Of a DNA stretch of 39,302 nucleotides, positions 113 to 39,302 are shown one piece after another. This DNA is from a virus. The stretch is taken from positions 1 through 39,302 of IMG/VR virus record IMGVR_UViG_3300046507_000504, one strand, 5' to 3'. How positions within the stretch are numbered: the stretch's first letter is position 1; each line of letters starts with the position of its first letter. A model generated the notes under the pieces. It had not been told where the DNA came from. It worked only from the letters and a program-made list of their open reading frames with translations, and searched no databases. Position numbers and translations under genes: made by a program.

Positions 113-142
113 AGCATCGCGCCACCGTGGGGTGCGTGTCAA
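113..142 (-). promoter_or_regulatory. candidate early (leader) promoter
   Basis: On the minus strand a perfect TTGACA (142-137) is followed after 18 bases by GATGCT (118-113), a weak -10. It would start transcription near 106, just upstream of leader target A and the attenuator, the expected place for the promoter of the replication operon. The -10 match is poor, so this is only a candidate. The 367-base gene-free stretch from 224 through 1/39175 to 39033 otherwise holds the RNA regulatory elements listed here. A 9-bp perfect inverted repeat, GCCGGCCTC/GAGGCCGGC (186-209), may end the upstream operon but has no T-run. Confidence 0.35.
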
Positions 143-1983: not shown

Positions 1984-2006
1984 CTGCAACATGCTACAGG
2001 CGGAAT

Positions 2007-2023
2007 TACCACGATGCGTGGAT
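2007..2023. promoter_or_regulatory. operator-like inverted repeat O2 over the repressor start
   Basis: TACCAC (2007-2012), five bases, GTGGAT (2018-2023): the same architecture as O1 with one mismatch pair, starting exactly 40 bp further on, close to four helical turns. It overlaps the ATG at 2014 taken as the repressor start, so it would suit autorepression. Alternatively the true start lies further in. Confidence 0.5.
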
Positions 2024-2724
2024 CGCATACGACAAGGGGTGGTTTTTTTGCTTCACTGGACGCGGCCTCCGTGCCCGTCCCGAACGCCGGCGATGTGATC
2101 GACCGGATGCGCGAAGTGCTCGGCTTGAGCTCCGACGTGGAGCTTGCTGAGCACCTGAAGCTCGGGCGAACGACGCCGGGCATGTGGCGGCTGCGCAATC
2201 GGGTGCCCACGGAGAATTGTGTCGAGGTCGCTGCACAACGCGGGGTCTCACTCGACTGGCTGGTCTTCGGTACCGGTGAAGCCGCGCGCGGCGTCACGCG
2301 TCAATATTCTGACGATGTAACTGCAGTGGCTGGCCACGTCGTGGTCGCACCACTGCGCGGCTTTGCCGACACACCCGGTGCGGAGCCACTCGTCTTGCCG
2401 GAATTGCTCATACGGCAGCGTGGTGTCGAGGGCGACCTCGGATCGTTGCGTTACATGATTAATCCGACAGACGGCTTGAGCCCGCGCCTGCCGAAAGGCC
2501 GTATTTTGCTGGTAGATGCGGGGATCACCCGCCACGAGGACGTGGTCGACGGCGAGACCTATGTGGTTCGGATGTGGGACCGTGTGAACGTGCGTCGCAT
2601 CTTCATCATCGGCCGCAACGAGTACCGTCTCCGCGGCGACAGTGAGCACGAGGAACGCCGTGATCTGACCGGGCCGGACTACCAGCACCTGGCGATTGGC
2701 GGCCGGGTTATCGACGCAATCTAG
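2014..2724 (+). CDS. cI: CI-type phage repressor (HTH plus LexA-like fold without catalytic residues)
   Basis: 236 aa from the ATG at 2014, with AGGCGG ten bases upstream. Residues about 27-85 match the phage CI repressor helix-turn-helix family: VIDRMREVLGL, then SDVELAEHLKL, TTPGMWRLRNRVP and GVSLDWLVFGTG. The second half has the S24/LexA layout (KGRILLVDAG, DGETYVVRMWDRV), but the usual DSM serine region reads DGL and the expected lysine before the last strands reads VRRI. Autocleavage is thus not expected and induction would be SOS-independent, as in P2. It shares an operator region with the divergent RHH-ogr operon and is followed 50 bases later by the MASE1 gene on the same strand, which is probably co-expressed in the lysogen. 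Confidence 0.82.
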   Translation: MRGSHTTRGGFFASLDAASVPVPNAGDVIDRMREVLGLSSDVELAEHLKLGRTTPGMWRLRNRVPTENCVEVAAQRGVSLDWLVFGTGEAARGVTRQYSDDVTAVAGHVVVAPLRGFADTPGAEPLVLPELLIRQRGVEGDLGSLRYMINPTDGLSPRLPKGRILLVDAGITRHEDVVDGETYVVRMWDRVNVRRIFIIGRNEYRLRGDSEHEERRDLTGPDYQHLAIGGRVIDAI

Positions 2725-2774: not shown

Positions 2775-4415
2775 ATGATCGACCGTGCATCGGATGCTTG
2801 GAACGTCCAGCGACTACTCGCTGGACGGTCAACCAGAGTCATCATCAACATCGTTACGGCAATGGCTTACATGGTGGCCTACCTTGGCCTGCGTGACGTC
2901 TCAAACGATCAGTGGTATCTGCCAGCAGGCCTGCGCTTCGCCGCACTCCTGGTCACGCCGTCTCGTCTGTGGCCGTCGCTGTTCATCGGCGACGTGGCGG
3001 CTCTCGCGACGTTCCGTGCCGCGATGATTCCCGAGTATGGCCTTCTGTACTACGCGTGCAGCTCGCTCGCTACGTGGCCGGTGGTCGCGTTGGTCGTTAG
3101 TCGCCTCGGGACGATCAACGATCGCCTCGGTGTTGGTAGCGCGGCCGATGCCATCGCGCTCATCGTTGCCGGCCTGCTTTCCGCCGAGCTGGTCACCCTG
3201 GCCAACAAGGCGATGCTGGCCTACCTGAAAATCGGCGGTGGCCACATGGTGTACGCGGACCTCATCGGATGGTCGATGGGTCAGGTACAAGGCATCATGC
3301 TTGCCCTTTTTGTGGTGGCTCTCTTCGCCAAAGGGCGCGACGCCCGGCCTGCTGAGCGGTTTTTCCTCGCTGACTCACTGGCGGCTGTCGCACTCTGCGT
3401 CGCGCTGGTGAGCTTCGTCCTGGTCATGGCGCCTCACGATGCGGGCGCCCTGATCGCCATGCGGCTCTGTTTGCTGCTGCCCGCCGTCGCTTTGACGTTC
3501 CGCCACGGTTGGCGTGGCGCAGCGGTCGGCTCGATCGCGGCCAGCATTGCCCTGTTTTCGACCATCCCGCATCAGGAGGCGGGTCAGGTAGACAGCGCGG
3601 GGATGCTGATGCAGGAGGTCTTCGCGTTCGTCTCGGCCTCCTTGTTCGTCCTCGGCGCACGGACGCACCAGGTCGAAAAGGCCGGCGCCGGTTGCTCCGA
3701 CGAACAGGCCGATGTCCTCCGCCACACGCGCGAGCAGTTCGAGTCGCATGAGAAGCGTCAGCGCGAGACAGCGCTGCGCGCGGAAGCCATGCAGAGCGAT
3801 TCACGCGAGCGCCTGGGTCCGCTCGTCACGCTGCTGCGCAAGAGTGGACAGGCCGAAGTGGCCATGAGCCTGGTCGGCATGGCACACACGCAGGCCTCGC
3901 ATTTCGGCCGGACGGTGGTCGACAGCATTTACCCGCTTACCTTGGAGCGTTTGGGCCTGTTCGCCGCGTTGGAGTCGGAAGCGTTCGCCGCTCACTTTGC
4001 CGGCACCGCGCACACATTCGACCTGGTCGGCCGGCCTCATGCCATTTCCCTGCCGGCGAAGCTCGCCGCGTATCGCGTGCTTGGCGAGGCGGTCGAGTGG
4101 ATGCTGGTATCGAAGCCACAGCGGATCCGCGTCGGCATCGACTGCTCGGCCACGCCGGAGGGCGAGTCAACGATCTGCATGGAAGTACAAGCGATCGTTC
4201 CGTCGATCACAGCCCGTTCCTCCGTGCAGACAGCCCGGCTCGCTCAGCTGCGTAACCGCGTCATGGCCTACGGCGGCTCACTCCACAATGTGCCGGGGTG
4301 CTTGAGCATGGTCGTGCGCGACGAACAGAGGGATGCGGCAACCGCGTCCGATAGCCTGCCGCGCGTTAGCCATGTACGCGGGCCCGCGATCGCGGAAGAC
4401 ACTCTCACCCGCTAG
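2775..4415 (+). CDS. MASE1 membrane-sensor protein with degenerate histidine-kinase C-terminus
   Basis: 546 aa from the ATG at 2775. Residues about 20-295 hold eight or so hydrophobic helices with the MASE1 pattern (WYLPAGLRFAALL, LWPSLFIGD). A charged linker follows at 296-345. Residues 380-515 resemble NarX/UhpB-type kinases: LTLERLGLFAALE, then an N-box-like YRVLGEAVEW and a final AYGGSLHNVPG. No H-box histidine is seen, the N-box Asn position is Trp, and the G-box is absent, so kinase activity is unlikely. It lies just after cI on the same strand and ends at a strong terminator, the position of a lysogenic-conversion gene. It may dampen or titrate a host signalling complex (inference). 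No clear Shine-Dalgarno is seen. Confidence 0.8.
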   Translation: MIDRASDAWNVQRLLAGRSTRVIINIVTAMAYMVAYLGLRDVSNDQWYLPAGLRFAALLVTPSRLWPSLFIGDVAALATFRAAMIPEYGLLYYACSSLATWPVVALVVSRLGTINDRLGVGSAADAIALIVAGLLSAELVTLANKAMLAYLKIGGGHMVYADLIGWSMGQVQGIMLALFVVALFAKGRDARPAERFFLADSLAAVALCVALVSFVLVMAPHDAGALIAMRLCLLLPAVALTFRHGWRGAAVGSIAASIALFSTIPHQEAGQVDSAGMLMQEVFAFVSASLFVLGARTHQVEKAGAGCSDEQADVLRHTREQFESHEKRQRETALRAEAMQSDSRERLGPLVTLLRKSGQAEVAMSLVGMAHTQASHFGRTVVDSIYPLTLERLGLFAALESEAFAAHFAGTAHTFDLVGRPHAISLPAKLAAYRVLGEAVEWMLVSKPQRIRVGIDCSATPEGESTICMEVQAIVPSITARSSVQTARLAQLRNRVMAYGGSLHNVPGCLSMVVRDEQRDAATASDSLPRVSHVRGPAIAEDTLTR

Positions 4416-4900: not shown

Positions 4901-4970
4901 ACGTCCCCTTTTTGGTGGTTGGAAATGGGTGCCAGGCGCGCAACGCGGCGCCCGCGGAAGTCTGCCATGG

Positions 4971-6053
4971 TCACGGGGCCGGTAGGTTTAAAGCGTCGGC
5001 CTCGCCATCGTCTTCGGATTCATCGCCTTCATCCTTGGCGGGATGATCGGACGCCGAGGCTTTGTTCTCGAGGGACACGTGCGTTGTATAGCCACCGTCG
5101 CCGGTCCACGTGTGAGTCGCGTCTTCCACAATCCAGTCGAACGCTGCGATTTCATCGCCCCACCCATAGGTCTTCGCCGGCATCTCGGGAAGTGCGTCCG
5201 GGTAGCCCTTGGCAAGGGCAATCTCGAAGGTCGCAGCGCCACGCTTCACGCGTGCCATTTCTGCCGAGGCAGCGCGCTGCGCGTCTTCGGGCGTAGCGAA
5301 GTGGCCGCGTAGAACCTTCACATGGCCGCCCTGGCCGGATAGCGTGCTCTTGGTTGCCGCGGCATCCACATCGTGCCATCGCGCTCGCACGCCGGTGTAG
5401 GAGTCGCGGTCGGCGACGTGAAACCGATGGCGATCGCCGGAAGCACGACGGATGGTGAGCGTGGGTAGCACCTTGCCGCTTACCGTGGCCCCTTGGCCGA
5501 TCGGGGCGAAGATGAGATAGCCGTTCTTCACCGTCGCCACGGCGTCGAACATGGATCCTACGCGGCGCAGCAGGGCGATATCGCTCTCGGTCTGGTCGAT
5601 CTGCTCTACAACGATGGCGCCGAGCTTGGGCGAAATGCGTGGCGTTAGGCCGTTCTCGCCGGCGATGACCTTGACCAGGTGGTCGACCGTCGAGTTGCTG
5701 AAACTGCGTTCCTTGCGCGTGTTGATCGAGCTGGCCAGCTTCGCGCTACGACCATGCACCGTGATGACATCGGGCGTGCCAGCGTGCTCAACCTCATCGA
5801 TAGTGAAGCCGCCCTGCAGCTGCACGCCCGAGCGAAGAAACCCCATCATGACTGATGCAACGACGCCGCGGCGGGGCAGCGCTAAGCCGCCATCGGTGGC
5901 ATCGAACGACATGGAGATTTCGTCAGCATGGCCACCGCGGGTGATTTTCATGGACAGCTGGGTGAGACGCGATCGCAGGACCGATGTGACGTCCTTTCCA
6001 TCGATTTCGATGCGAGACGCGGGAATGCCACTGGTGGCCAGCGTGCCGGCCAT
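4971..6053 (-). CDS. D: P2 gpD-like baseplate hub / late control D protein
   Basis: 360 aa from the ATG at 6053; a GTG three bases earlier is also possible. It has the length and organisation of P2 gpD (387 aa): an N-terminal IEIDGKDVTSVLRSRL segment, a mid part with HGRSAKL and LTPRISPKLG, and a barrel ending in a TGDGGYTTHVSLENK strand, with an acidic tail. gpD forms the central hub that carries the gpV spike under the tail tube, equivalent to T4 gp27. It overlaps the stop of gpU and is the last conserved gene of the tail operon. Confidence 0.93.
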   Translation of the reverse strand: MAGTLATSGIPASRIEIDGKDVTSVLRSRLTQLSMKITRGGHADEISMSFDATDGGLALPRRGVVASVMMGFLRSGVQLQGGFTIDEVEHAGTPDVITVHGRSAKLASSINTRKERSFSNSTVDHLVKVIAGENGLTPRISPKLGAIVVEQIDQTESDIALLRRVGSMFDAVATVKNGYLIFAPIGQGATVSGKVLPTLTIRRASGDRHRFHVADRDSYTGVRARWHDVDAAATKSTLSGQGGHVKVLRGHFATPEDAQRAASAEMARVKRGAATFEIALAKGYPDALPEMPAKTYGWGDEIAAFDWIVEDATHTWTGDGGYTTHVSLENKASASDHPAKDEGDESEDDGEADALNLPAP

Positions 6054-9826: not shown

Positions 9827-10339
9827 TTACCACTGGCCGATGGCGTTACGTTCGGCGGTCTTGATGTCGATTCCGTTGATGCGGACCACGTTGGCCAGGT
9901 TGTCGATGAAGACAACTTCCGCACCGTTGACGGCAAAGCGGTAGACGGCGACTTCGAAGGTGTACTTCCACTCGCTGATGGTCTGCGCCTTCGCATCGCC
10001 CGGATCGACTTCCGAGTAGCGGCCGCGCATATAGACCTCGACGGCATCCAGCTGGCCGGTGGCGTCGTTCTGGTAGGCGCCCAGGAAGCGGTTGCCGACG
10101 GCGTCGACGGTGGTCGCGCCGAACGAGCTCAGCGCATCCAGGCGATAGCCGTTGGTGGAGAGGGTCGCCTGCAGCTTCTCCATGCCCAGGTCGATCATCG
10201 TCGGGGCGGCCATGCCACCGTTGATGACCTCTTCCATCTTGCGGGTGAGCTTGGGCAGGCCCAGGCTGTTGGTCTCGCCAGTCCAGCCGATGCCGTCCTG
10301 GAAGTGATTGAAGTTTTTGAGGACGCGGGGGAGGCTCAT
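9827..10339 (-). CDS. FII: major tail tube protein
   Basis: 170 aa, the same size class as P2 FII (172 aa), with the family start MSLPRVLKNFNHFQDG, then LPKLTRKMEEVINGGM and the MIDLGMEKL strand. Near the end it has ISEWKYTFEVAVYRFAVNGAE. It polymerises into the hexameric inner tube of the contractile tail. It follows FI, separated by 77 bases that hold a strong hairpin (10387-10412). Confidence 0.96.
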   Translation of the reverse strand: MSLPRVLKNFNHFQDGIGWTGETNSLGLPKLTRKMEEVINGGMAAPTMIDLGMEKLQATLSTNGYRLDALSSFGATTVDAVGNRFLGAYQNDATGQLDAVEVYMRGRYSEVDPGDAKAQTISEWKYTFEVAVYRFAVNGAEVVFIDNLANVVRINGIDIKTAERNAIGQW

Positions 10340-29006: not shown

Positions 29007-30638
29007 CTACGTCAGCTGGTGATCGATTGAGGCGTCCTCGGCGGCGATCCAGGCGCCGGTCTTTCGATGCACACGCAGCACGCGGGCCGCGCCGCCGTGG
29101 GGAATGATGACCAGGTCCAGTACGGTGCTGCCCTCGTCGGTGAGGTCGATACCACGCCGGTACACCACGATGCGCGAGAAGGTGTCGGCCACCAGCTGGC
29201 GAGCCTTGAGCCTGGCGTCGTAGTCCTGGGCTTTCACCGCCTCGACTAGTTCGGCCCAGGCCTGCGCAGCGGCCGGTGTCTTCCGCGATAGCACGGCGAG
29301 CTCGGCCTCCGCGGACGAGAGCACGCCGCGCGCCGCGACGAGGTCCGCCTCGATGCCGCGGATCTGGCGCAGCAGCGTGGGAGGCGGGGCATCGTCGTCC
29401 TGCAGGAGCACGTCGGTCAGTCGCTGCAGCTTTCTCTCGAACTCGGCTTCCCGCGCACGTGCGGTAGCCACACGCTGCCGCGCCGGTGCGTCAAGAGACG
29501 TTCGGTCGAGCAGGGCGTTTAGGTTGATCTGGTCGGCGCAGTACGTGAGAAGCGCACGCTCGATCGGGGCCACGCTGGTGCTACCGCCTTTCACCGGGCA
29601 ACGTCGCCCAGACTGATCGGAACAGCACGCGAGGCGGCGGTGGCCATCCTGCACTTTGCCCTGTGCATCCCGCCGGCGAGACGTGAGGTTTTGCGCCACC
29701 ATCGCGGAGCCGCAATAGCCGCAGTAGGTCACGCGCAGGCCCGTGATGATGCCCGGGATTTCGCCACGACCCTTGCGGCGGCCGCGCTGCGTGAGTGCCA
29801 CCTGCAGATCGGCGAAAGCGTCATCGGTGAGCGCGGCCGGGTAATAGCCCTCAAGGCGGTATTCGATATCTCCAACGCTAAGCGTTTTCGCGCCGACCAA
29901 TGCCGGCAGACGAAAGAGCTTGTACATATGCGATGCGACCGTCCGCTCACTGACAGCGAGGCCCGCTTCGTTCAGTCGGTCTACGATCTTCGCGGCGCCG
30001 TGGCCATCCAGGAATAGGCGGACGGCCAGGCGCACGGCCTCGAGGCGCTCGGGCACAAACTCCCAGGCGCCGTCGACCAGACGTAGCCATTGCGGATCCT
30101 TGCCGTTGCGTATGACGCCGCGGAACGTGCCGGCCTGCCAGCCTTCGCACTGCCGTCGAATCGCGGCGCGCACGCGTTTGCTCTTCGTATCGCTCTCTTC
30201 GTGAGCTCGGATCATCACCAGGAGGCTGTAGACCAGCTCCATCGGGTTCGCTTTCAGACCCTCCCGGTTGTATTCGCGGCCGTCGCTGGCCGTGACGACC
30301 GTGATGCCGGCATTGACCACCTGGGCGAGCTGGGCTTGGGCCTGAATTGGCTCGGCGCGGCTTAGCCGATCGAGGCCTTCAACCACCAGGACGGAGCCGG
30401 CAGCGATGCGGCCCTCATCGATGGCGCGAAGGAAGGCGCCCAAGGCGCCTTGCTTGACATGCCGCTGGTGAAAAGCGCTGAGACCTTCGTCCCGAAGCGA
30501 CAGGGACTCATCAAGGGCGATCCCTCGATCGCGCGCCCATCGCTCGGCGTACTCCGTCTGGCGGGCGGCGCTGCTGCCGGCGGACTGCCTGGAATCGCTG
30601 AACCGTAAATAGCTGTATACTTTCGCGTTTTTAGACAT
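29007..30638 (-). CDS. int: large serine recombinase (integrase)
   Basis: 543 aa, ATG at 30638 with AAGGG eight bases upstream. The N-terminal catalytic domain begins VYSYLRFSDSRQ (nucleophile Ser14 in Y-x-R-x-S), with DEGLSAF and VEGLDRLSR. The recombinase domain holds RVRAAIRRQCEGWQAG and VDRLNEAGL. A zinc ribbon (CGYCGSAM ... LACC ... GRRC) and a coiled coil (AREAEFERKLQRL) follow. Large serine integrases recombine attP and attB without host factors and need a separate directionality factor. P2 itself uses a tyrosine integrase. The attP site should lie next to the gene; flanks are 28921-29006 and 30639-30740. No directionality factor is recognisable. Confidence 0.93.
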   Translation of the reverse strand: MSKNAKVYSYLRFSDSRQSAGSSAARQTEYAERWARDRGIALDESLSLRDEGLSAFHQRHVKQGALGAFLRAIDEGRIAAGSVLVVEGLDRLSRAEPIQAQAQLAQVVNAGITVVTASDGREYNREGLKANPMELVYSLLVMIRAHEESDTKSKRVRAAIRRQCEGWQAGTFRGVIRNGKDPQWLRLVDGAWEFVPERLEAVRLAVRLFLDGHGAAKIVDRLNEAGLAVSERTVASHMYKLFRLPALVGAKTLSVGDIEYRLEGYYPAALTDDAFADLQVALTQRGRRKGRGEIPGIITGLRVTYCGYCGSAMVAQNLTSRRRDAQGKVQDGHRRLACCSDQSGRRCPVKGGSTSVAPIERALLTYCADQINLNALLDRTSLDAPARQRVATARAREAEFERKLQRLTDVLLQDDDAPPPTLLRQIRGIEADLVAARGVLSSAEAELAVLSRKTPAAAQAWAELVEAVKAQDYDARLKARQLVADTFSRIVVYRRGIDLTDEGSTVLDLVIIPHGGAARVLRVHRKTGAWIAAEDASIDHQLT

Positions 30639-33799: not shown

Positions 33800-34714
33800 T
33801 CAGTTGGCCTCCGGTCGGGGGATACGGAACGTGGTCTCCAGGTGCGTGAGCAGGCGCGTCACTTCCAGGACGGCGAGAGCGAAGTTGTTTTCAACCTCGG
33901 CGTCTTGCGACTCGTGCTCCTGCAGCGCGCTGTCGAGCAGTACATCGGTGGGCCGAAGTGCGCGGATACTGAGGTCTTCGGCGAGCACCAGATCGAGCCG
34001 GTCATCGAACGTCAGGCCGGTGGTAAAGCACTGCTTGCCGCTGCGCAGGTGCTCCCGGATCTCATCGGTGTCCAGGTCCTGCCGCCGGCACCGGACAACA
34101 GCACCGTGCGACGTCGCAGGGTCGCGGAGCTCGCACTCGTCACCTAGGGTCAAGCCAGCCGGCATTTCGCCGGTGGCCAACCAGTGCGTCATGAGCAGAC
34201 GCGGGCTTTCCTCGGGAGCCAGGCGTACGGCAGGGAACGAACCGAATGCCTCCCGCAGCTGCGACAGCACGTTTTCGGCGCGCTGGCGGGAGCGCGTGTC
34301 GATGACCACCCAGCCATCGCCCAGGTCGATCCATCCACGGGTTGCGCGGGTGCTGATGAGCGCACGGGGGAGCAGTTCGTTCCAGACATCGTCGCGGATG
34401 CCTTTCCGCTCGCGGGCGCCGACCTTGCGGTCTTCATCATCGGCGATCTTCTGCGCGCGCTTGGCGACTTCCTCGTTCACCGCACGGGCGGTGATATCCC
34501 GGACGCGCAGCTGATGGGTGAAGCCGACAGTGCGGCCATGGCGGACGACCAGGCGATCGCCGGTTGGCCCGTAGGGCGAAGCGAACCCGGAAGCGGACAG
34601 TTCCTGGGGGCCGGGGTCGCGTGTTGTGTGCAGCGCCAATTCCGCCTCGATTTCATCGATAGATGACCTGGGCGGCGCGCCGATGCGGTAGACGGTCAGA
34701 TTGCGAGGAAACAT
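33800..34714 (-). CDS. rdgC: RdgC-like recombination-associated protein
   Basis: 304 aa from the ATG at 34714; E. coli RdgC is 303 aa. The start MFPRNLTVYRIG, then GFASPYG, LVVRHGRTVGFTHQLRVRDITARAVNEEVAKRA, and KGIRDDVWNELLPRALIST RATRGWIDL are RdgC hallmarks (the RALISTR-like segment and the DGWVVIDTRSRQRAENVLSQLREAFG part). RdgC makes a ring around DNA and inhibits RecA. In a phage it may protect replicating DNA or steer recombination. It belongs to the early chain just downstream of the primase-helicase. Confidence 0.9.
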   Translation of the reverse strand: MFPRNLTVYRIGAPPRSSIDEIEAELALHTTRDPGPQELSASGFASPYGPTGDRLVVRHGRTVGFTHQLRVRDITARAVNEEVAKRAQKIADDEDRKVGARERKGIRDDVWNELLPRALISTRATRGWIDLGDGWVVIDTRSRQRAENVLSQLREAFGSFPAVRLAPEESPRLLMTHWLATGEMPAGLTLGDECELRDPATSHGAVVRCRRQDLDTDEIREHLRSGKQCFTTGLTFDDRLDLVLAEDLSIRALRPTDVLLDSALQEHESQDAEVENNFALAVLEVTRLLTHLETTFRIPRPEAN

Positions 34715-34721
34715 GGGCGCC

Positions 34722-34913
34722 TCAGCGGTGGACGACGTAGGGCGCCGCGGCAATAAACGCCGTGGCGGTGAGGATGACGCCAGCCACGAACCCGACCAGG
34801 ACAGACGGGTCGCGGGTGGGGCGGGGGATGGCCAGGCCGGCGGCGACGTGGCCACTTGCCGTAGACTTGAAGCGGGGCTCGAGCGCCACCGCCGTATCGA
34901 TCTTTCTGTTCAT
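34722..34913 (-). CDS. small tail-anchored membrane protein
   Basis: 63 aa from the ATG at 34913 with AGGAG five bases upstream. A polar N-terminus (MNRKIDTAVALEPRFKS) is followed by one C-terminal transmembrane helix (VLVGFVAGVILTATAFIAAAPYVV). It begins 87 bases after the primase-helicase stop, and seven bases after it comes RdgC. Membrane placement of an early protein suggests exclusion or anchoring of replication, but nothing is shown. Confidence 0.6.
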   Translation of the reverse strand: MNRKIDTAVALEPRFKSTASGHVAAGLAIPRPTRDPSVLVGFVAGVILTATAFIAAAPYVVHR

Positions 34914-34999: not shown

Positions 35000-37696
35000 T
35001 CATTCGCCGTTGGGTCGTTTGAAAATCCAACAGCGGACGCTTAGCGATTTGGGACCGTCCGTGGCTTCGGTCACACTCTTGGCACGAAGCGGGCTACGGA
35101 CGGTTTTGTTGGCCTCAACGAACTTGTGAACCTTGCTGGTGGGCAGATGCTCGTGGAGCTCGCTCAGCGTCGGTAGATCACGCCAGCGCTCAGCGGCACG
35201 GGCCAGCCATTCGTTGAGATTGACGGCGATCTGGCCCTTTTCGGCGCTGTGATTGAGGTACGGGTGCAGGCCGGTGCCGTCGAGCTCGTAGAAGCGATCC
35301 CAGAAATTGCGCACGATCGGGTGATCGGAGCCGATGACTTCCTCGCGCTCAACGATCATTCGCTGGATCTGGGCGTAGGTTTCCCCGCGAAAATCGGCCA
35401 TGGAAGGAACAACGAGCTCCATCGCTTCGGCCATCGCCATCAGCTGCGCATGGTTCTTGGCCAGGCGGATGCTCTTTACCCTTTCCAGGGCCATAAGCTC
35501 GGCTTCGTAGACCGGCATGCGCTCCGCGAAGCGCTCCATCACCTGTGTCTCGGCCTTGGCGGCGCCCACCACGAAGTAGCTCAGTTCGTCCGCCGTCATC
35601 GCATTGAGACGGTCAGACTTCTGTTTGCCTTCGGGCGTGTGACCCTCGCGTGTCATGAACACGTGGCAGATACGCTGCATCACAGCGTCGTCAGCCTTCA
35701 CCGGGCGGTTCTGCTCGATCACGATCGACCCGCGGAACGGCGGCTCGTACGTCTCGTTGCCGGAGTTCTTCACACCGGTGGTGCGCGTCGAACGGCCGTT
35801 GTAAAGCGACTTCAACTCGTTGTAGTCGAACTTGAGCGCCTTCGCGCCGTCGTCGCCGCGGTCGCCTTCCATCAGCACCACCGGAAGGTTGGCCACCTGC
35901 ACGAACGTTCGCGCGCGGCCTGCAGCGGTCGACTTCGAAGGGTCGAAACCTTCGTAGGTCGGGCGGCCGGTGAGACGGTTGAGGAAGGTGACCAAGGAGG
36001 TTTTGCCCGAGCCTGCCTCGCCTACCATTTCGAAGAACGGGAAGCTCTCCTGGCATGCGCGCACCTGCTCGGCGAACAGCGATCCGAACCAGAACGCCAG
36101 GGCGACCAGTCCCTTGCCGCCGTAGACGTCGCGCACAAGCCGCGGCCACGTCTGATTGAACGAGTTGGGGTCGGCGTTGATCGAGTGCGGGACGCTGCTG
36201 GTCGTTTTAACGTTGGTCTTCTTGTCGAGCTCGAAGTATTCCTCTTCATTCACCTCGAACACGCGTCCCTCGCGCACGGCGACGTTCTGGAAGACGTAGG
36301 CGTTGAATTCGCGGGCGTAGCCGATGAAATCGATGGTGTCGACCTCCTTGAGCTTCCTCAGGCGATCGTCGTACGTGCGGGCGAGCTTTTCCTTGCTGCC
36401 TTTCCAGCGTGCGCCGGACAGCAGCGAGAGTAGGCGGATGTCGAACTGCGCGGGCGTCGCCACCTGCTCGGCAGTAAAGGCCGACTTGACGGGGCGCTTC
36501 CTGGCCATCTTGATGTTGAAAAAATACTGCGAGTCGTCGGTAATCGCATTGCGCTGGAAATACAGCGGCTCCGGCAGGCACGACGCAATTTCGGCCACGC
36601 TGCAGGCCTGCTTGAGCGCTTCGTCGGTGAGCTCTTCATCGCTACGCTCATCGCCGTCTTTTTCGCGCAGGGACTGCTTGGCCTTTTCGAGCCGCTTCTC
36701 GCTCAGTTCGAACCAATACACGCTATCGCCGAATTCGAACGGGAAGCTGGTGTGCTCGCTGCGCTTGTACATCCTCCGTGCTTTCTCGGACGGCGAAGGT
36801 GCCAGGGCGATGTTGCCCTCGTGCCGGTAGTCGGTCAGGTGGTCATCGGCAAGTCGGCTGCGTTGATGCGCCTCGTTCCAGTCAATTTTCTTGCCGTCAA
36901 GCGGCTGCGGGATGATTGCCGCCGTCGCATGCCAGCCATCGGCGCGTGACTTCTTGACGTGGTCTTCGAGGTATTCGCGGCCACCGCGGTCGCCATCGGG
37001 TGCCCACACCAGCTTTGGCCGCTTCCCGCCCTCGGGAAACAGCTTGTCCAGGGTGTGCTTCGGGTAGTTGGAATTGGAAATGGCCGAGATTGCAGCGATG
37101 CCGTTGAGGCAAAGCGCGATCGCGTCGAAGATTCCCTCAGTGATCCAGATTTCGTCTGCGGTCAGCACGTCGACCAGCGACGCCGGCGGCACCCACGCAT
37201 GGCCGCGGTACGACTTTCCGTACTGGAAGTGGGCCTTCATTTTTCCGAACCGGTGGGGACGATCGATGATGCGTTCCCAATAGCCGCACCCGGGCAGGTC
37301 GAAGCGCACCGTGGCCGAGCCAATGCCCAGGTCACGGCTGTGGTAGTAGTCCTGCGTGTAGGCGCCCTTGAAGCGGCCGATTTCGAAGCCGCGCATGTTG
37401 ACCAGGTACGCGTCGGCCGCCGCCATCGGCGATTCCACCGTTTGCGGGTAGCGGTCCGACCACGACTGGAACAGGTCGTCATAGAGCTCCTTGACGTAGC
37501 CCTCCCACCCGCACTTCGATTTGCGGCTGCACCACAGCTTCCAAGGTGATTCCGCGCTGGCCCACACTTCCTTTTTGCTGCAGGCGGGGCATTTGCCATC
37601 CTGCAGCCACTTCGAGTTCGGCCGCGCCTTAAAAGCGTAGTCGTCCATGAGGCGTTTGGTGATGTCCCGATGGAGGGACGCGTCCATCATGGTCAT
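35000..37696 (-). CDS. Toprim primase-helicase (P4-alpha/phage-replicase type)
   Basis: 898 aa. N-terminal zinc finger of four cysteines (Cys36, Cys39, Cys56, Cys62), then a Toprim fold with Glu187 (IWITEGIFDAIAL) and Asp235/Asp237 (WAPDGDRGG), the DnaG-type active site. A linker leads to an ATPase with Walker A GEAGSGKT (559-566), and a Walker B-like VVLMEGDRG. The C-terminus is helical. It makes primers and unwinds DNA at the origin. P2 has the rolling-circle protein A here instead; this phage therefore likely replicates as a theta form, as P4 does. The start ATG at 37696 overlaps the previous gene (ATGA). Confidence 0.88.
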   Translation of the reverse strand: MTMMDASLHRDITKRLMDDYAFKARPNSKWLQDGKCPACSKKEVWASAESPWKLWCSRKSKCGWEGYVKELYDDLFQSWSDRYPQTVESPMAAADAYLVNMRGFEIGRFKGAYTQDYYHSRDLGIGSATVRFDLPGCGYWERIIDRPHRFGKMKAHFQYGKSYRGHAWVPPASLVDVLTADEIWITEGIFDAIALCLNGIAAISAISNSNYPKHTLDKLFPEGGKRPKLVWAPDGDRGGREYLEDHVKKSRADGWHATAAIIPQPLDGKKIDWNEAHQRSRLADDHLTDYRHEGNIALAPSPSEKARRMYKRSEHTSFPFEFGDSVYWFELSEKRLEKAKQSLREKDGDERSDEELTDEALKQACSVAEIASCLPEPLYFQRNAITDDSQYFFNIKMARKRPVKSAFTAEQVATPAQFDIRLLSLLSGARWKGSKEKLARTYDDRLRKLKEVDTIDFIGYAREFNAYVFQNVAVREGRVFEVNEEEYFELDKKTNVKTTSSVPHSINADPNSFNQTWPRLVRDVYGGKGLVALAFWFGSLFAEQVRACQESFPFFEMVGEAGSGKTSLVTFLNRLTGRPTYEGFDPSKSTAAGRARTFVQVANLPVVLMEGDRGDDGAKALKFDYNELKSLYNGRSTRTTGVKNSGNETYEPPFRGSIVIEQNRPVKADDAVMQRICHVFMTREGHTPEGKQKSDRLNAMTADELSYFVVGAAKAETQVMERFAERMPVYEAELMALERVKSIRLAKNHAQLMAMAEAMELVVPSMADFRGETYAQIQRMIVEREEVIGSDHPIVRNFWDRFYELDGTGLHPYLNHSAEKGQIAVNLNEWLARAAERWRDLPTLSELHEHLPTSKVHKFVEANKTVRSPLRAKSVTEATDGPKSLSVRCWIFKRPNGE

Positions 37697-37962
37697 GCGA
37701 TCGAAATCCCCAGGTACTCGGCAGCTTCAGCGGCGCTCGCCTCGGGCAGGGCCACGAAGAAACCGTCCACCCACAGTTCTAGGCCGCGGTCTTGGTCGCG
37801 GGTGACGGCCAGGTACGGGTTGAACGCGCTCACATAGCCGAACGGGCTCAGGCCGTTGCGGTACTCGATGACGGTCACCGAGCGACCGAGCGTTGATGTG
37901 CGTTCGGTGATCATCAATCGGGCACCATCGGAACCGACAAGGGTGAGGGTGGGCTTCGTCAT
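37693..37962 (-). CDS. small early protein, repeat family member 1
   Basis: 89 aa, coupled to the primase gene by ATGA. It has a strand-rich N-terminus (LTLVGSDGARLMITER) and ends with LELWVDGFFVALPEASAAEAAEYLGIS. The end resembles those of the next three genes upstream (pattern hydrophobic-strand, G, strand, S/T-A, helix, LG). One of four tandem, ATGA-linked relatives. Function unknown. Confidence 0.65.
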   Translation of the reverse strand: MTKPTLTLVGSDGARLMITERTSTLGRSVTVIEYRNGLSPFGYVSAFNPYLAVTRDQDRGLELWVDGFFVALPEASAAEAAEYLGISIA

Positions 37963-38258
37963 GGCATGGCCTCGTTCTTCGACGGGTATTCGATGCCCAG
38001 GAACTGCGCGACCGAGCGCGCGCTCACATCTGATAGGTCGAGGTGGAAGCCGTTGACCAGCAGCTGGCAGATGCCGCGCTGATCGCGTATCACTCTGGGG
38101 CGATCTTTCTCATCGGCGACGAACGTGACGATGTCGGTGTACTTGAAGTCACGGCCTTTCTTGAAGACTGTCGCAACAAGACCGCCGCCGAAGAATCCTT
38201 TTGACACTCGGGTTTGGAGTCCACCCATAGCCTTGACAGTGACCGATTCGATCTTCAT
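37959..38258 (-). CDS. small early protein, repeat family member 2
   Basis: 99 aa. MKIESVTVKAMGGL start, then VVATVFKKGRDFKYTDIVTFV and an end CQLLVNGFHLDLSDVSARSVAQFLGIEY that lines up with member 1 (LWVDGFFVALPEASAAEAAEYLGI). Linked by ATGA to both neighbours. A shared fold with members 1, 3 and 4 is seen by eye. No known function. Confidence 0.65.
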   Translation of the reverse strand: MKIESVTVKAMGGLQTRVSKGFFGGGLVATVFKKGRDFKYTDIVTFVADEKDRPRVIRDQRGICQLLVNGFHLDLSDVSARSVAQFLGIEYPSKNEAMP

Positions 38259-38509
38259 GCAGGCACCTTGGCGAGCGCCACAAAAGCCATCACTGCGGCA
38301 CCTTCGTCCGCTGAAACTGGTAGCGTCGTGGAGCCCAGCACAAGGGTGTGTCCCTCGATCCGCGCGTCGTCCGCGCCGACTAGAGCGCCATGGACGATGC
38401 GCTGGTGCAGGCCCCGGCTTTCGAACACCGTGACGTCAAGGACGTTGCGAACCGAACGCATATGCATGGTCACGCCGGCGGTCAGGTCGAGCAGCAGTTC
38501 GTTGGCCAT
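38255..38509 (-). CDS. small early protein, repeat family member 3
   Basis: 84 aa from the ATG at 38509 (GGAGG seven bases upstream; GTG at 38512 is possible). MANELLLDLTAGVTMHMRSVRNVLDVTVFESRG and a C-terminal IEGHTLVLGSTTLPVSADEGAAVMAFVAL, weakly like members 1 and 2. ATGA overlap with member 2. Unknown function. Confidence 0.62.
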   Translation of the reverse strand: MANELLLDLTAGVTMHMRSVRNVLDVTVFESRGLHQRIVHGALVGADDARIEGHTLVLGSTTLPVSADEGAAVMAFVALAKVPA

Positions 38510-38808
38510 CACGTGGCCTCCGCGTCGATCGCAGGGTGTAGAAAGGCTTCGATCGCGTCGGCTTCGGCTGTGGTGACGACCACGGAGAGGTCGCCCAGCC
38601 AGAGCATGTGGGCCACCGACGAGCGGACGATCTTCACTCGCGTGAGGTCACACTCCACCACCAGCGCGCTATCGAGGGCTTCGGTATCGAGGGAAGCGGT
38701 GACCTGGTCGGTGGCGCGGCGCACGTTGAGGCCGATATTCATGCCCATGGCAAGCGGCATGGCCAGGTCGCAAGCCTGGGTCAGCATGGCGAGGGACAGG
38801 CGCGTCAT
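38509..38808 (-). CDS. small early protein, repeat family member 4
   Basis: 99 aa. A helical N-terminus (MTRLSLAMLTQACDLAMPLAMGM), then a strand part (NIGLNVRRATDQVTASLD; ALVVECDLTRVKIV) and an end MLWLGDLSVVVTTAEADAIEAFLHP that fits the pattern of members 1-3. The ATG overlaps the stop of the first early gene (ATGA). Unknown function. Confidence 0.62.
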   Translation of the reverse strand: MTRLSLAMLTQACDLAMPLAMGMNIGLNVRRATDQVTASLDTEALDSALVVECDLTRVKIVRSSVAHMLWLGDLSVVVTTAEADAIEAFLHPAIDAEAT

Positions 38809-39032
38809 GCCGGCTTCTCCACCTTCAGAGCGACGCAGACGGCGTTCAGCGCGGATGCCAGGCGCACGTCGACCGTGAGCAGCAGCTGATGCGCTTCCGT
38901 GGGCGTGACGGTGTGGTTGTACCAGGCGGCGATGATGCCGCTGTGGGCACAGTAAGCAGCCTGCAGGGCTGCGGTCATTTCAGCGGCGGCGTGCTGACGC
39001 ACGAGCTCGCGAGCGCGGTTGCGCTTGGGCAT
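38805..39032 (-). CDS. first gene of the replication operon, unknown
   Basis: 75 aa from the ATG at 39032 with TTAGGAG seven bases upstream. A basic start (MPKRNRARELVRQH) leads to two helices (AAEMTAALQAAYCAHSGIIAAWYN; TPTEAHQLLLTVDVRLASALNAVCVAL). The in-frame extension to 39215 is a translation of the leader RNA and should not be annotated. Its ribosome site is target C of the antisense element, so its translation is the switch point of the operon. The protein itself is unrecognised. Confidence 0.7.
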   Translation of the reverse strand: MPKRNRARELVRQHAAAEMTAALQAAYCAHSGIIAAWYNHTVTPTEAHQLLLTVDVRLASALNAVCVALKVEKPA

Positions 39033-39039
39033 GGTGGTG

Positions 39040-39074
39040 CTCCTAAAGTTGGAGACCGCCACCACGCTGTCAAA
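39040..39074 (-). promoter_or_regulatory. leader target C overlapping the ribosome site of the first early gene
   Basis: Minus strand: TTTGACAG (39074-39067) and TTTAGGAG (39047-39040), the latter seven bases before the ATG at 39032. Both parts are complementary to the antisense element just upstream on the same transcript. Pairing would hide the Shine-Dalgarno of the 75-aa gene and could uncouple translation from transcription of the whole chain. The TTGACA here resembles a -35 box but is better explained as an antisense target, because the same sequence recurs in target A. Confidence 0.68.
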
Positions 39075-39089
39075 CGGGGTGACGGACGA

Positions 39090-39143
39090 CGCAGGATTGA
39101 CAGACCGGTAGGAGTCACCGGCGAGCCCGAAGGCTCTCCTGCG
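39090..39143 (-). ncRNA. C4-type antisense RNA (P1 c4 / P4 CI RNA class)
   Basis: On the minus strand this 54-nt segment folds as a three-way junction. The outer stem is CGCAGGA (39143-39137) with UCCUGCG (39096-39090). Hairpin 1 is GAGCC-UUCG-GGCUC (39136-39123). Hairpin 2 is CCGGU-GACUCCU-ACCGG (39121-39105), with CUCCU exposed in the loop, followed by single-stranded UCUGUCAA (39104-39097). The strand CTCCTACCGGTCTGTCAA is complementary in two parts (UAGGAG and UUGACAG) to target A (59-85) and to target C (39040-39074), where UAGGAG is the Shine-Dalgarno of the first early gene. Two antisense modules, one against a ribosome site, define C4 RNAs of P1/P7 and CI RNA of P4. A covariance search with the Rfam C4 model would settle it. 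Confidence 0.78.
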
Positions 39144-39175
39144 CCGCCCGCCAAAAAGGGGGAGACGCGCCGCGC

Positions 39176-39302
39176 ACACTTGCCCGAACGACGGACGAAG
39201 AAAAAGCGCCTTCATCGGTCGATGGGCGCTTGTGCGCCTCCTAACTGGGCTGTCAAACCCGGTCGCCGATTGTGCGGCGACGCGGCAAGCATCGCGCCAC
39301 CG
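39176..39302. repeat. terminal redundancy of the contig, copy 2
   Basis: Second copy of bases 1-127. It holds the same leader target A (39234-39260) and attenuator hairpin (39201-39231). Joining 39175 to position 1 restores a continuous early leader running in the minus direction from about 142 through 1 and 39175 to 39033. Confidence 0.95.

Follow-up and report, generated by a model that had tools for sequence, protein, structure and literature searches.

The window analysed here is the whole of the IMG/VR virus record IMGVR_UViG_3300046507_000504, positions 1 to 39,302. The ends of the record share an exact overlap of 127 bp, indicating a circular molecule with a true length of 39,175, so that positions 1-127 are the same bases as 39176-39302 and features in the overlap are listed twice. 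This overlap bears out the suspicion of an initial annotation, made from the letters of this DNA, that the leader of the replication operon spans the circular junction. The window contains P2-type genes for tail sheath, tail tape measure, tail and major head proteins and the small terminase (matches to phrog_23, phrog_28, phrog_52, phrog_76, phrog_70 and phrog_74), and its named relatives by primase are Peduoviridae. The phage is P2-like (Peduoviridae), and a comparison of its DNA with named phages returned two short matches only.

Several other genes of the window have recognizable domains. The gene at 2775-4415 (plus strand), which adjoins the repressor gene, encodes a protein of 546 aa that contains a MASE1 membrane sensor domain and is possibly a cargo or lysogenic conversion gene. 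The large integrase encoded at 29007-30638 (minus strand) matches phrog_95 and, more weakly, a DNA-invertase, which suggests a serine recombinase, unlike the tyrosine integrase of P2. An RdgC-like protein (E 6e-81) is encoded downstream of the primase at 33800-34855 (minus strand).

The leader contains a C4 antisense RNA (RF01695), which is the only RNA family that passes its curated threshold when the window is searched with Rfam release 15. The covariance-model search, proposed by the initial annotation as a check, returned a full-length match (model positions 1-87) with 71.7 bits and an E value of 3e-12, the gathering cut-off being 45 bits. The predicted fold has the three expected stems, P1 of 17 bp, P2 capped by a UUCG loop, and P3, at a free energy of -50.3 kcal/mol (z = -6.1), and none of 200 shuffled sequences was equally stable. 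The compact three-way-junction RNA recognized earlier is thus confirmed, but the extent assigned to it (39143-39090) is only the core of an element that runs from 39158 to 39075. The score is below that of the relatives (71.7 vs 86 bits), with the loss mainly at the b' loop. The a' stretch of the window is identical to a' of phage P1. From the sequence, the 5' end is a putative RNase P cleavage site at the GG motif, which would give an RNA of ~77 nt. The features of the leader and its operon are collected in Table 1.

Table 1. Features of the C4 leader, its operon and the repressor gene, in window coordinates.
Feature	Position	Strand	Evidence or remark
CI-like repressor gene, presumed protein immunity layer	1996-2724	+	Phage_CI_repr HTH and S24-like
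-35-like TTGACA box	137-142	-	Sequence; also in L002, L003, L004
-10-like GATGCT	39288-39293 (same bases as 118-113)	-	18 nt downstream of TTGACA
Upstream target a1, TTTGACAG	39250-39257	-	Exact match to a'; inside c4-a1b1 match
Upstream target b1, TTAGGAG	39238-39244	-	6-nt complement of b'
Terminator-like hairpin GCGCC..GGCGC + TTTTT, between b1 and C4	39201-39229	-	isrK covariance model, 39.4 bits
C4 antisense RNA	39075-39158	-	RF01695, 71.7 bits; MFE -50.3, z -6.1
Putative RNase P site UUUUU^GGC	39152	-	GGC at expected place
Antisense stretch b', CUCCUA, P3 loop	39109-39114	-	Complement of b1 and b2
Antisense stretch a', CUGUCAA, P3-P1 junction	39097-39103	-	Complement of a1 and a2
Downstream target a2, TTTGACAG	39067-39074	-	Exact match to a'
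Downstream target b2, TTTAGGAG, Shine-Dalgarno (SD) sequence of ORF1	39040-39047	-	Exact match to b'
ORF1, 75 aa, predicted C4-controlled leader cistron	38805-39032	-	ATG at 39032; no family match
Small cistrons ORF2-ORF5, which overlap or abut their predecessors	37693-38808	-	No family match
Primase, 898 aa, last overlapping cistron	35000-37696	-	phrog_1139, Toprim_2

Both antisense stretches are exactly complementary to the downstream sites named in the initial annotation (39074-39067 and 39047-39040), the second of which covers a ribosome-binding site. A second target pair, a1/b1 (39257-39238, minus strand), which had been missed, lies upstream of C4. Its a1 falls in a match to c4-a1b1 (RF03163; 39294-39242, E 1.2e-10), a leader motif that places a1 in a small hairpin; the match scores 45.5 bits against a cut-off of 46.7, and both a1 and b1 agree exactly with the antisense stretches. 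The pattern TTGACAG(N3-30)TAGGAG occurs in the window at the downstream target, at the upstream target (listed twice through the end overlap) and, on the plus strand, at the complement of C4 itself; there are no other places in the window, and 0 are expected in shuffles. Duplexes between matched stretches were calculated at about -8.4 to -8.9 kcal/mol, compared with -2.0 to -4.5 kcal/mol for mismatched ones.

The C4 RNA is found at the same place in the closest relatives by primase, the loci L002 and L003 (84% identical primase) and L004 (63%). These loci have CUGCUAA as a' and TTTAGCAG at both a1 and a2, compared with CUGUCAA and TTTGACAG in the window. Their b' is UUCCUUUGUGC or GUUCCUAAGUC, and these loops fit their own SD regions, GCACAAAGGAA or CTTAGGAAC, the downstream and upstream a targets being changed correspondingly. 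The initial annotation had held that a lack of compensatory changes in related phages would speak against the RNA; such changes are present, and this objection therefore falls away.

For a broader comparison, loci were collected from viral contigs using C4 stem patterns and from gammaproteobacterial genomes using the Rfam model, which had matches in 24 of 369 genomes. The resulting 167 loci represent 134 distinct a'/b' combinations (codes), with the loci not phylogenetically independent and a small part of the pattern-found set maybe not true C4. Part of the loci were picked by patterns that included P3, one of these searches also fixing a' as CUGUCAA, but the targets were never selection criteria. 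An exact 7-nt partner of a' is present downstream (a2) in 83% of codes and upstream (a1) in 83%, compared with 2% and 6% when codes are swapped between loci. For b', a partner of at least 6 nt is found downstream (b2) in 78% and upstream (b1) in 83% of codes (9% and 19% with swapped codes), and three sites are jointly matched in 95 of 132 codes against 4 of 3114 swapped combinations. Across 155 sequences, all 22 pairs of the P1 and P2 stems show compensatory double-sided changes. Pairing was found in 74% of the stem-pair cells (40-58% in a slid register), a count that includes loci pre-selected for the P1 stem; in the set found by the covariance model alone, 61% of the cells pair in a fixed register.

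Three pairs of close prophages (L169/L306, L161/L223 and L154/L155) differ by an AG/GA dinucleotide swap that is the same at a1, a' and a2. Both a' and b' of L223 and L306 are those of the window, CUGUCAA being a common a'. L249, whose record is as long as the window, shares no 31-mers with it. A primase profile scan of the genome contigs added three distant loci only. A scan of viral contigs for TTTGACAG(N3-30)TTAGGAG was left unused; among the matches listed, most were chance-like.

Some genomes contain more than one C4 locus. The virus record G003 (42,597 bases; loci L004 and L142) encodes two C4 RNAs, at 10168-10254 and 40512-40595, with the codes CUGCUAA and AGACCAA, each of which has an exact downstream partner. 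C4 genes form a tandem array in the genome G267 (C9:1700-3092), where four matches on one strand, at 1700, 2055, 2653 and 3007, lie within 1.4 kb, and genome G280 has ten dispersed matches.

The sequences flanking the C4 RNA also recur. In the window, a TTGACA box 60 nt upstream of a1 (142-137, minus strand) and the GATGCT following it, a pair also present in L002, L003 and L004, form a putative leader promoter; a consensus scan called no sigma-70 promoter there, probably because the -10 element is weak. The terminator-like hairpin between b1 and C4 would be the 3' end of an isrK-like leader RNA. The match to isrK (RF01394) has 39.4 bits against a gathering cut-off of 50 (E 2.3e-7), and with this score below the cut-off, kinship with isrK is claimed only in the sense of working alike. 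A consensus scan over 38000-39302 reported no terminator, probably because the stem is interrupted. Among the 72 codes with enough upstream sequence, 40 have TTGAC at a distance of 55-65 nt upstream of a1 and 69 have a 5' hairpin ahead of a1; 58 have a terminator-like element between b1 and C4, compared with 1 of 72 in a control stretch. Thus, the leader is a conserved module in which a putative promoter and a hairpin precede a1/b1, and a terminator-like element, C4, a2/b2 on the SD, and ORF1 follow in this order. Folding predicts the SD and ATG of ORF1 to lie inside a local hairpin, a prediction that the other codes support modestly.

The b2 target TTTAGGAG is the SD of ORF1 and is followed after 7 nt by the ATG. 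ORF1 heads six cistrons that extend from 39032 down to 35000 and end in the primase, their starts overlapping or abutting the previous stops; ORF1-ORF5 received no name from Pfam, PHROGs or NCBIfam. ORF1, proposed as the first early gene, may not hold that position, since other genes on the same (minus) strand, including one for an Ogr/Delta-like zinc finger, lie upstream of the leader. It had also been suggested that the ORF of the first gene is over-extended through the antisense RNA and hides it. The longest ATG ORF (39215-38805) does cross C4, and its ATG has no SD-like sequence. However, calling it a pure artefact goes too far, because the counterpart frame is open through the CI RNA in P4 as well, where eta/kil is a reading frame through that RNA (PMC10111431). 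Selection on a read-through ORF over C4 was also considered as a possibility: the frame of ORF1 is open through C4 in 64 of 104 codes compared with 41 and 23 for the other frames, a weak excess in GC-rich DNA.

Phages P1 and P4, run as positive controls in the same analysis, show the same layout as the window, in agreement with the logic of P1 c4 and P4 CI RNA put forward earlier. The C4 RNAs of P1 and P7 (RF01695) share with the window the three-way fold with a UUCG-type P2, b' in the P3 loop and a' in the junction, as well as an upstream a1/b1 and a downstream a2/b2 that covers the SD of a small ORF. P1 also has the same a', CUGUCAA, whereas its b' is CACUAAC (CUCCUA in the window) and its controlled operon is icd-ant (antirepressor) rather than small ORFs and a primase. 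The P4 locus resembles the window in having a promoter, seqA, a terminator-like hairpin, CI, seqC and a nested short ORF, and in controlling a replication operon (P4 alpha primase); in both, the RNA lies between upstream and downstream targets ahead of the replication genes. In contrast to the window, P4 has a different code and relies on CI RNA for immunity, and the window primase (phrog_1139) belongs to another family than the alpha primase. The window adds a CI/S24-like repressor gene, in line with the protein repressor supposed in the initial annotation, and the presence of this gene together with the C4 locus makes two immunity layers likely. Since P1 has both C4 and a protein repressor, this combination is not unprecedented.

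The IsrK-STnc1160-orf45-anrP locus of the Salmonella prophage Gifsy-1 likewise has a short terminated leader RNA, a C4-like RNA downstream, a small ORF and a coupled downstream gene (PMC4825925), but the isrK match of the window is below the cut-off and the gene downstream encodes a primase in place of an antirepressor. In Acinetobacter baumannii, C4-like sRNAs have the same fold and a variable a' loop, with RNA-seq evidence for processing at GGW or GGC (PMC5320573); they occur as many dispersed copies, compared with one copy in a phage replication leader in the window. P2 itself was expected to be without such a system and had no C4 match in a search whose performance on phage records is proved by the P1 and P4 matches. 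Among ten named phages that share this primase family, nine likewise have no C4, which makes the device an optional one for the group. The sole carrier is U2F1 (Bracchivirus), a P2-like phage whose C4 differs from that of the window in its a' (AUUUCCAC) and in its position about 3 kb upstream of the primase. In the P2-like relative Stenotrophomonas phage Smp131 (L128), an sRNA-Xcc1 match (RF02221, 73.5 bits) at 4950-5037 takes the place of C4 upstream of the primase; sRNA-Xcc1 is listed close to isrK and C4 in Xylella (PMC12189769).

We interpret the window locus, with a probability of roughly 0.87, as a C4-type antisense RNA immunity locus that blocks translation of ORF1 and the replication genes. 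The leader transcript would carry a1/b1, the terminator-like hairpin and C4, followed by a2/b2 over the SD of ORF1, and RNase P would probably excise C4 at its 5' GG. Free C4 in a lysogen would bind a2/b2 through a' and b' and block translation of ORF1, and the resulting loss of translational coupling, together with Rho-type polarity, would silence all of the replication genes in the block. A block at ORF1 should have this effect given the head-to-tail overlap of ORF1-ORF5 and the primase, judging from this layout and from what has been published on how C4 and CI RNAs behave (PMC5320573, PMC4825925, PMC10111431, PMC12197685). Pairing with a1/b1 may cause early upstream termination as in P4, or a short a1/b1 (IsrK-like) RNA may titrate C4. 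The specificity of superinfection immunity would reside in the code of 7-nt a' and 6-nt b'.

The C4 RNA might instead act chiefly by ending transcription prematurely, either at the hairpin that follows a1/b1 or at a downstream Rho site, rather than on ORF1 translation first. P4 CI works through termination (PMC4825925, PMC10111431), the window has the seqA-CI-seqC layout of P4, and the terminator-like hairpin recurs in most codes (58/72 vs 1/72). However, b2 is placed exactly on the SD of ORF1, and a stop before C4 would abolish its own synthesis. Moreover, the hairpin folds with or without a1/b1 bound and offers no clear switch; a flip between antiterminator and terminator on C4 binding is likewise unsupported by folding. 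Termination as the chief mode of action is a serious but rather unlikely candidate. It is also conceivable, though we consider it unlikely, that the short leader RNA with a1/b1 and the terminator is a positive regulator in trans, with C4 as a brake that is released by titration of C4 or by opening of the hairpin over the ORF1 SD. The isrK match (39.4 bits, E 2e-7) is in favour of this, as is the predicted hairpin over the SD and ATG of ORF1, which agrees with the IsrK model (PMC4825925). In addition, the spacer opposite b2 pairs with its own b2 at -12.5 kcal/mol compared with -11.0 kcal/mol for b2 of other codes, but this hairpin effect is modest, the loci are not independent, and the isrK score is below the Rfam cut-off. 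Activation of this kind is compatible with translational repression by C4 and does not exclude it.

It is very improbable that the RNA is a vestige with no control of the phage left, or that it acts only against other phages sharing its code. C4-like RNAs do persist as many copies in some genomes (PMC5320573), and the CUGUCAA a' is common. Against this, all four target stretches in the window are still exact, and the code differs from those of close relatives in a coordinated fashion, which decay does not explain. The GC-rich composition of the region and the mechanical ORFs that cross it might be expected with a chance fold and chance complementarity, but the covariance-model E value (3e-12), the fold z-score (-6.1), the expectation of 0 target motifs and the co-variation in 134 codes refute chance, whose probability we regard as negligible.

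The C4 family, its fold, targets and upstream motif, and the heteroimmunity of P1 and P7 through few changed nucleotides are already known (PMC2864571, PMC5320573). Thus, the window C4 is a good example of a known immunity device, not a new kind. In the open-access papers searched, no description was found of a co-varying code on this scale or of the natural dinucleotide swaps, and since most subscription papers lie outside this scope, priority is not claimed.

In the window, an RNA immunity layer is added to a P2-like phage and is placed on the replication operon instead of an antirepressor. In the wider set, changes in the a'/b' code are accompanied by changes in its targets over >100 variants. 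The odds appear evenly balanced that C4 loci constitute a large combinatorial RNA immunity code in which a' and b' modules reassort independently and very similar prophages are heteroimmune. If so, modules of 7 nt (a') and 6-12 nt (b') would be subject to matched changes at up to six sites, and some prophages would owe their heteroimmunity to a coordinated dinucleotide swap. At the RNA level, the window phage would then be co-immune with L223 and L306 and heteroimmune to L002 and L003. Superinfection immunity of prophages would become predictable from about 13 nucleotides, and the nearly identical natural locus pairs make the predicted immunity testable.
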